From contig NC_136016.1 in assembly GCF_048128805.1 (NCBI RefSeq), forward strand, positions 16,574,676 through 16,638,675: a DNA stretch of 64,000 nt. Direction: 5' to 3'. The notes beneath the pieces are model-generated. The model worked only from the letters and a program-made list of their open reading frames with translations. It was not told the origin of the DNA and made no database searches. The stretch is from Centroberyx gerrardi (lineage: Eukaryota > Chordata > Actinopteri > Beryciformes > Berycidae). Each line of letters opens with the position of its first letter. Position 1 is the first letter of the stretch. The translations under genes were made by a program, and so were the position numbers. Shown piece by piece: positions 14,941 to 44,995 of the stretch.

Positions 14941-16198
14941 TCAGCATGACAGCAGGAACATGAAGAGAATGGGGACAGTGAGGGAGAGGAGTAAGGAAAC
15001 AGAGAAAACAGATGCATTTCCTGTGGCAGTTGTTGCAGGAGAAGGCATGTCACCCACTTTCTCCTTTAGGAAGGACCCAAATCTTGATGTTTTGGCAAAG
15101 GTCTGTATATCTGCACGGACACGTCTACTTTCCTCTACAGTTACTACGGCCACCTGGAACCAAGAGGAATCTGACTTGCACAGCAGAGGCCCCCCCTGAT
15201 CGCCCTGTAAATATAACAAAAGATACAAAAAAAAAAGAGAGCATTAATGAAAATTTAGGTCCTCCTGATACAACTGATACTCCCATTCTGAACATGCACC
15301 AACATCTATCATCTACTAGCCTTATGGCATGGCAATCAGAGTTTGGTACATAAAATAGAAGCACTGGCAGATGTGATAACTTGTTTTACCTGCTGAATGT
15401 CCATGGCATAAGTGCAGATGTTCTCAGAGTCAGAATCGTTCCCACAACTTGTCACATTTGTCTCCAGGTCCCGTAGAGCTGAGCCAGCTCTGACATCGCC
15501 TACAATAATTAGATTTACTCAGATGAATATAAGCAGTCCATATAATCAGCTATATGCCTGGTTAAACACCAAGTAACATAATGAAAGATCTCCGAAAATT
15601 ACAATATCATACAAACACTACTTCAACAAACAATGAGCAGAAAAGCTTCATGACTGCTTTACCTCTGGTCTCGTTCCCTTGCCCCCAGCCTGCCACCCAG
15701 CATTGGCTTCCAGTGGGGAAGGATCTTGAATTGGTATGGTCCACACACACAGGCTGGATATAATCACTGTAGCTGACTGGTTTAGCCAGCTGCAGTAGTG
15801 CAATGTTGGAACCCGTCATGTTGCTCACTGTAATGTTCATAACATCCAAAGACAACTCAAACTCTTCTGAGCCGCTCACAAGTCGCTGGCCCAGATGCAC
15901 ATTCCACTCCATGACATTTGGATTTGAGCTGTAAGGAGAATAAATAGCATCCTCACAAATTAATTTTCATTCCTCAGTGGTGTTAATGTATAATGAATAA
16001 AAAAGGCTTTGATTTATAAAGTAGATGCTTACCTGGAGAAGCACTGGGCAGCAGTGAGGACAAAGTTATCGCTGATAAGGGTTCCTCCACAAACGTGGAC
16101 TCCGTCTTTGTGGAGACTGACCATCCAGGGCCAAGTTCCCCCGGCCACAACACCACTGTCCCCTACCACACGACTGTTTATAGGGGCACGACCACACA
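14941..16198 (-). CDS. Polyserase module 15: catalytically dead terminal protease domain with membrane tail
   Basis: Exons 16033-16198, 15663-15928, 15390-15499 and 14941-15204 (stop TGA at 14941-14943). The fold is clear: [43 protein letters not shown]. The triad is fully replaced: TAAQC instead of TAAHC (His57 to Gln), GSNIALLQL instead of NDIALL (Asp102 to Asn) and GDQGGP instead of GDSGGP (Ser195 to Gln). The usual Cys191 is Gln and no partner Cys220 is seen, so that disulfide is lost as a pair. Five N-glycosylation sequons are visible. The C-terminus [20 protein letters not shown] is a TM helix or GPI signal. The frame is open, so this is a pseudo-enzyme rather than a pseudogene. Confidence 0.87.

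Positions 16199-44995: not shown

Follow-up and report, generated by a model that had tools for sequence, protein, structure and literature searches.

The window, a stretch of 64,000 nucleotides from the genome of Centroberyx gerrardi (contig NC_136016.1, positions 16,574,676 to 16,638,675), contains one open gene model in which 15 S1 trypsin-like domains are encoded in a single frame. On the basis of its sequence, we consider it probable that this is a single gene encoding a giant polyserase tethered to the surface, consisting of a leader and a 21-nt exon, 14 active protease cassettes, and a dead domain that carries the sole anchor signal, and that it has grown from a gene with one active and one dead domain.

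An earlier reading of the same DNA, made from the letters alone (here called the sequence-only reading), had proposed 62 GT/AG exons with consistent phase, leading from one ATG to one stop over 13,254 nt. An independent rebuild reproduces this model. The 62 exons lie on the minus strand, between the ATG at 44,995 and the end of the stop codon at 14,941, all 61 introns have GT...AG borders, and the joined frame of 13,254 nt is divisible by three, has a single terminal stop and encodes 4,417 amino acids (Table 1). The first exon of the dead domain has two possible starts, at 16,204 or 16,198, which are 6 nt apart and both in frame; the latter is used here, being the choice that reproduces the earlier total. 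The junction from 21,639 to 21,244 to which that reading had drawn attention is the one between the fourth exon of M11 and the first exon of M12.

Table 1 Features of the array gene and of its two-domain paralog. Positions are those of the window unless a contig is given; M1 to M14 are the active modules in order of translation.
Feature	Position	Strand	Description
Leader exon	44941..44995	-	55 nt; ATG and signal-peptide-like sequence [18 protein letters not shown]; donor GAG|GTAAGT
Pre-exon	44368..44388	-	21 nt (ESHSQLD); counterpart in the two-domain paralog ESRSQLE
M1	41581..44137	-	Active module, four exons
M2	39560..41089	-	Active module
M3	37806..39213	-	Active module
M4	35910..37459	-	Active module; divergent linker with two extra Cys
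M4-M5 intron	34603..35909	-	1,307 nt; sole long junction intron
M5	33272..34602	-	Active module
M6	31187..33156	-	Active module; Lys as activation residue
M7	29278..30792	-	Active module
M8	27368..28883	-	Active module
M9	25459..26973	-	Active module; repeat unit the same as that of M7, no difference
M10	23549..25064	-	Active module; protein the same as M8
M11	21639..23154	-	Active module
M12	19730..21244	-	Active module
M13	17820..19335	-	Active module
M14	16337..17649	-	Active module
Dead domain D	14941..16198 (or from 16,204)	-	Q57, N102, Q195; four exons; hydrophobic C-terminal tail [23 protein letters not shown] and stop
Candidate poly(A) signals	14407..14437	-	Two AATAAA, about 0.5 kb beyond the stop; read by eye
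Longest exact repeat	23,418-27,326 and 27,237-31,145		3,909 bp; offset 3,819 bp; no mismatch
Two-domain paralog	C7:5,314,356-5,323,856		Intact; 10 exons, 630 aa; one active and one dead domain

Only 25 residues, from the leader and the short pre-exon, precede the first module. Each active module has four exons, with sizes of 163, 269, 146 and about 304 nt (298-325) and start phases of 1, 2, 1 and 0. The module is therefore a symmetrical phase 1-to-1 cassette, of about 294 amino acids, and it occurs 14 times. Matches resembling a TATA box are present at many places across the region, and the one at 45,034 was therefore set aside. An Rfam search of the whole window at gathering thresholds gave no match.

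The residues H57, D102, S195 and D189 are kept in all 14 active modules, and the activation residue ahead of IVGG is Arg in 13 of them and Lys in M6. In the fifteenth domain the triad is replaced (H57Q, D102N, S195Q), so that the 14 active domains and one dead domain of the sequence-only reading are confirmed for the sequence as assembled. Two of the fifteen domains were scanned against the Pfam Trypsin family, in which M8 scored 249 bits and the dead domain 123 bits. The nearest solved structures to the catalytic domain are those of prostasin (E 3e-67). D189 and the glycines of the S1 pocket predict that the beads cleave after Arg or Lys.

The reading of the array as a single chain is well supported by the arrangement of its exons. 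None of the 14 module-end exons carries a stop, in agreement with what had been stated for the linker exons. The junction introns are, in order, 491, 346, 346, 1307, 115, seven of 394, 170 and 138 nt long, and 13 of the 14 are thus within 115-491 nt. A strict scan for secretory leaders on the gene strand, from 46.0 to 14.5 kb and including all 14 junctions, returned the leader at 44,995, itself judged by hydropathy, and one spurious match that overlaps the first exon of M1; the background was a mean of 1.85 matches in 20 shuffles, and 0 on the plus strand. When the junction introns were scanned singly, at slightly different settings, there was no strict leader in the 12 of the 14 covered (M8-M9 and M9-M10 being left out). 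As a control the strict scan was applied to nine real genes, of which some had little sequence upstream; its leaders were convincing in five (including the array gene and its paralog on contig C7), absent in three and unconvincing in the remaining gene. The claim that no later module has a leader of its own therefore stands, as the outcome of a modest test, given the chance matches and the success in five of nine controls. More weight for a single chain comes from the absent inner stops, the intron sizes and the related genes described below.

It is scarcely credible, then, that the model joins in error what are really individual single-domain genes lying side by side. Several single-domain paralogs of the family do exist in the genome, but the modules of the array lack leaders, stops and anchor tails, most of their junction introns are too short, and the same active-to-dead junction is found in the two-domain paralog. 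A division into two genes, M1-M4 and M5-M14 with the dead domain, would have to be made at the M4-M5 junction. Its intron is the only long one and contains a 50-bp inverted repeat, the linker of M4 is unusual, and a loosened scan (bare GT donor, lower threshold) returned eight leader-like rows there and one in the M3-M4 intron. However, the M4-M5 intron has no leader with a GT(A/G)AG donor, the looser candidates being without good donors, and the fourth exon of M4 has no stop ahead of a good donor, AGG|GTAAGT, with a score of 92. With no strict leader at this place a break is disfavoured, and we regard it as very improbable. The inverted repeat (window 35,320-35,453, with arms of 50 bp that are 88% complementary) resembles a small mobile element.

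The donors of the single chain are not equally strong. Those of M6-M12, at seven of the 14 junctions, have the sequence AAT|GTAAAT and score 73, compared with 80-92 at the other seven, on a donor-site matrix; the inner donor of the third exon of M14 scores 70. Read-through at the seven junctions would add 19 residues and then reach a stop, and AATAAA or ATTAAA is present in six of the 14 junction introns. Weak donors and intronic poly(A) sites could in this way end some transcripts early, and one gene would then yield, besides the full-length chain, shorter ones that lack the tether. However, AT-rich introns of such a length should often contain these hexamers by chance, and we think products of several lengths unlikely.

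Related genes were searched for in the 779-Mb assembly (278 contigs). With the last two module exons as query (150 of 239 candidates scored), matches of at least 83% lie in the array alone, on contig C20, and the others reach 74% or less, among the matches listed. With the dead domain as query, the best matches outside the array to D1, D2 and D4 are in the two-domain gene on C7 (143 of 200 candidates scored), and its D3 was found by a separate search. This paralog has the same sizes as the array gene for the leader (55 nt, if the second of its two adjacent ATGs is taken as the start), the pre-exon (21 nt), E1 (163 nt), E2 (269 nt) and E3 (146 nt), and it has the same order of active and dead domains and also ends in a hydrophobic tail. 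It differs in having one active module instead of 14, in the lengths of E4 (271 nt) and of the dead-domain exons (172, 254, 98 and 444 nt), and in the triad positions of the dead domain, which are Ser, Asn and Ala as read by eye, compared with Gln, Asn and Gln in the array. From the equal sizes, the array looks like a gene of this one-plus-one type in which the active cassette was amplified, and this would be the simplest history. A tree of 22 sequences, which included nine of the 14 array modules, places these nine in one clade (100/99). The dead domains of the array and of the C7 gene group together at 100/100, though on long branches, which can attract each other. The branching among the remaining paralogs is mostly unsettled in this tree. 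A long Ala/Thr simple-repeat stretch, possibly variable in length, precedes the hydrophobic end of the C7 gene (C7:5,323,413-5,323,856).

The single-domain paralogs, so called from their exon layout and not from assembled genes, provide a further comparison. A hydrophobic tail and a stop are present at the end of exon 4 in seven of nine of them, against none of the 14 array modules. The seven (tails judged by eye) comprise one on C23, three on C7, two on C20 and the window's own gene at 59.8-62.3 kb, while the two on C13 have a charged repeat and then a stop, with no hydrophobic tail in the exon examined. The gene in the window (59,666-62,341, minus strand) is distinct from the array and encodes a prostasin-like protease of one domain; its tail and stop are in its last exon. 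A related gene for a single-domain protease is present in two close copies about 14-26 kb to the left of the window (C20:16,548,533-16,560,515, plus strand), and one copy has a repeated TTTAA linker. Equal-scoring protease matches on the small contig C111 (35,199-35,633) and at C6:33,519,783-33,520,217 are perhaps a haplotype duplicate, and the assembly may hold duplications.

Within the array, M7-M12 have a repeat period of 1,909-1,910 bp, and their units are near-identical, introns included. The M7 unit equals the M9 unit exactly, and the other pairs among the six differ by 12-39 substitutions; M13 shares most of the repeat unit. The longest exact repeat (Table 1) would represent either a very recent two-module duplication or a duplication in the assembly. 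For this reason, 14 is the module count of the assembly and may not be that of the fish. If the assembly is at fault, the array is overstated by two modules and the true chain has about 12 active beads and the dead one. We consider this rather unlikely, although it is a chance to be taken seriously: 3,909 bp without a mismatch stand beside units that are otherwise clearly distinct, but recent unequal crossing-over would yield the same picture, and the assembly has no alternative copy of the array elsewhere, all listed matches of at least 83% being on C20. The bead-on-a-string precursor activated at R/K-IVGG sites, as first put forward in the sequence-only reading, remains the best reading, favoured by a one-plus-one paralog with largely matching exons and by the exon-4 tails and stops of the other paralogs. 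The count of 14 may be too high. Features that the sequence-only reading did not mention are the anchor-like hydrophobic C-terminus, the exact 3.9-kb repeat behind this doubt, the seven weak junction donors and the cysteine patterns, which predict that beads remain attached after cleavage.

The block of E3, intron 3 and E4 in M1, M5 and M6 is 97-100% identical to that of M8, with the exception of the extended linker of M5, while intron 1 of all three is unlike that of M8, as is intron 2 of M1 and M5. Identity beside unlike introns suggests gene conversion among the modules. Values of dN/dS (NG86) for pairs of active modules are 0.16-0.51, with 11 of the 14 modules compared, and are a soft indication of purifying selection, since some pairs have few changes and conversion affects the measure. 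The near-identity of the M7-M12 units might also be taken to mean that the array is non-functional and has been retained just by recent duplication. This appears remote, because all 14 frames and triads are intact and the older modules have dN/dS well under 1, although gene conversion blurs the latter. More tentatively, and with the odds somewhat against it, we hypothesise that the gene is a catalytic-domain VNTR, in which a 1.9-kb in-frame cassette of 294 residues gains and loses copies through unequal crossing-over and conversion. The number of beads would then differ between individuals, as in mucins, and the dose of protease at the epithelial surface would be a heritable length trait.

The sequence also suggests how the chain might work. 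Prostasin is GPI-anchored. The hydrophobic C-terminal tail of the dead domain, judged by eye, suggests GPI anchoring here too, and with such a tail, which seven of the nine single-domain paralogs share, the product is probably surface-tethered and prostasin-like. The leader would send the chain out of the cell and the C-terminus would hold it. Each bead would be switched on by cleavage after the Arg or Lys ahead of IVGG, and the cut could be made either by a different trypsin-like protease or by an adjacent bead; as all 14 beads keep D189, they could activate one another at NNR|IVGG. Ahead of the activation residue, 12 of the 14 linkers have no Lys or Arg and the remaining two have one each, so that self-cleavage inside the linkers should be limited.

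Each bead is also predicted to have a Cys1-Cys122 pair, and probably a second pair between the CNC cysteine and a linker Cys (SYTCPG). In the aligned crystal constructs of prostasin, the Cys122 position is occupied by Ser and the second Cys of CNC is replaced by Ser or Ala; native prostasin has cysteines at both. These are the positions that would pair with the propeptide and the linker. With such pairs the cleaved beads would stay on the string, and the outcome would be a high local dose of prostasin-like activity. That this activity would be placed on an epithelial surface is suggested by the likeness to prostasin.

Multi-domain serine proteases, as described in the portions of the literature drawn on here, contain two or three protease domains, some of which are often dead. 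The human polyserases have two or three (PMC1435904). According to the sections of that paper used here, polyserase-2 and polyserase-3 are secreted and keep several S1A domains in one chain; the later domains of polyserase-2 are inactive, and in polyserase-3 cleaved domains are proposed to be held together by Cys pairs (PMC1435904). The array gene resembles polyserase-2 (PRSS36) and polyserase-3 (PRSS53) in layout, having a leader-like signal and several S1A domains in one chain. Like polyserase-2 it has an inactive last domain, here with Q57, N102 and Q195, and the Cys pairs that may keep its cleaved beads attached recall polyserase-3. It differs from PRSS36, with three domains, and PRSS53, with two, in that it has fifteen, that the active domain has been amplified and that the tail is anchor-like.

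Polyserase-1 (TMPRSS9) is described as having a type II transmembrane segment, an LDL-receptor module, three domains and proteolytic release (PMC1435904). It shares with the array the tandem trypsin-like domains, and is itself membrane-associated, but the array gene has a leader, no LDL-receptor module and a C-terminal tail. Membership of the TMPRSS9 type was rejected, the N-terminal type II segment and LDL-receptor A module being absent. Papers on Takifugu, cod and salmon mention 'transmembrane protease serine 9-like' genes and give no domain counts for them in the portions used here (PMC3894188, PMC8779962, PMC4911373). Two or three S1A domains per chain, with Sushi or LDL modules, are reported for Tenebrio (PMC11172050), and one gene with three S1A domains for Nematostella (PMC6767649); unlike the array, these insect and cnidarian peptidases have, as far as those accounts go, few domains and no homogeneous active array. 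Prostasin (PRSS8) and other GPI-anchored S1A proteases are close in their catalytic domain and in a hydrophobic C-terminal tail with no cytoplasmic part, which was judged by eye in the dead domain and in seven of the nine single-domain paralogs, but prostasin is a single-domain protein. In the literature searched, within the parts of it drawn on, no chain had more than three trypsin-like domains, and an automatic annotation of a longer one in fish genomes may exist. Beside these chains of two or three domains, the array is an extreme variant of the polyserase kind and not a new category.

If the single-chain reading is true, a single tether bearing about 14 active domains of near-identical sequence would be a test case for the effect of multivalency on a protease, and the chain would raise the question of how the cell avoids early activation during secretion. 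The array would likewise test whether an enzyme domain can vary in copy number within one gene among the members of a population. As a natural control, the same genome provides the two-domain paralog.

The neighbourhood contains other genes. At window positions 54,755-56,518, on the plus strand, there is a MAPK7 (ERK5)-like kinase exon, with MAPK7 structures as its best match (E 4e-126). The open frames at 53,017-53,445 and 56,517-57,752 matched no Pfam family and may belong to the same MAPK7-like gene. An integrin alpha FG-GAP exon lies at 6,084-6,473, also on the plus strand. If this integrin is of the alpha-M/X/D kind, which in human is encoded at 16p11.2, then the neighbourhood would recall that region, the home of the genes for polyserase-2, polyserase-3 and prostasin.
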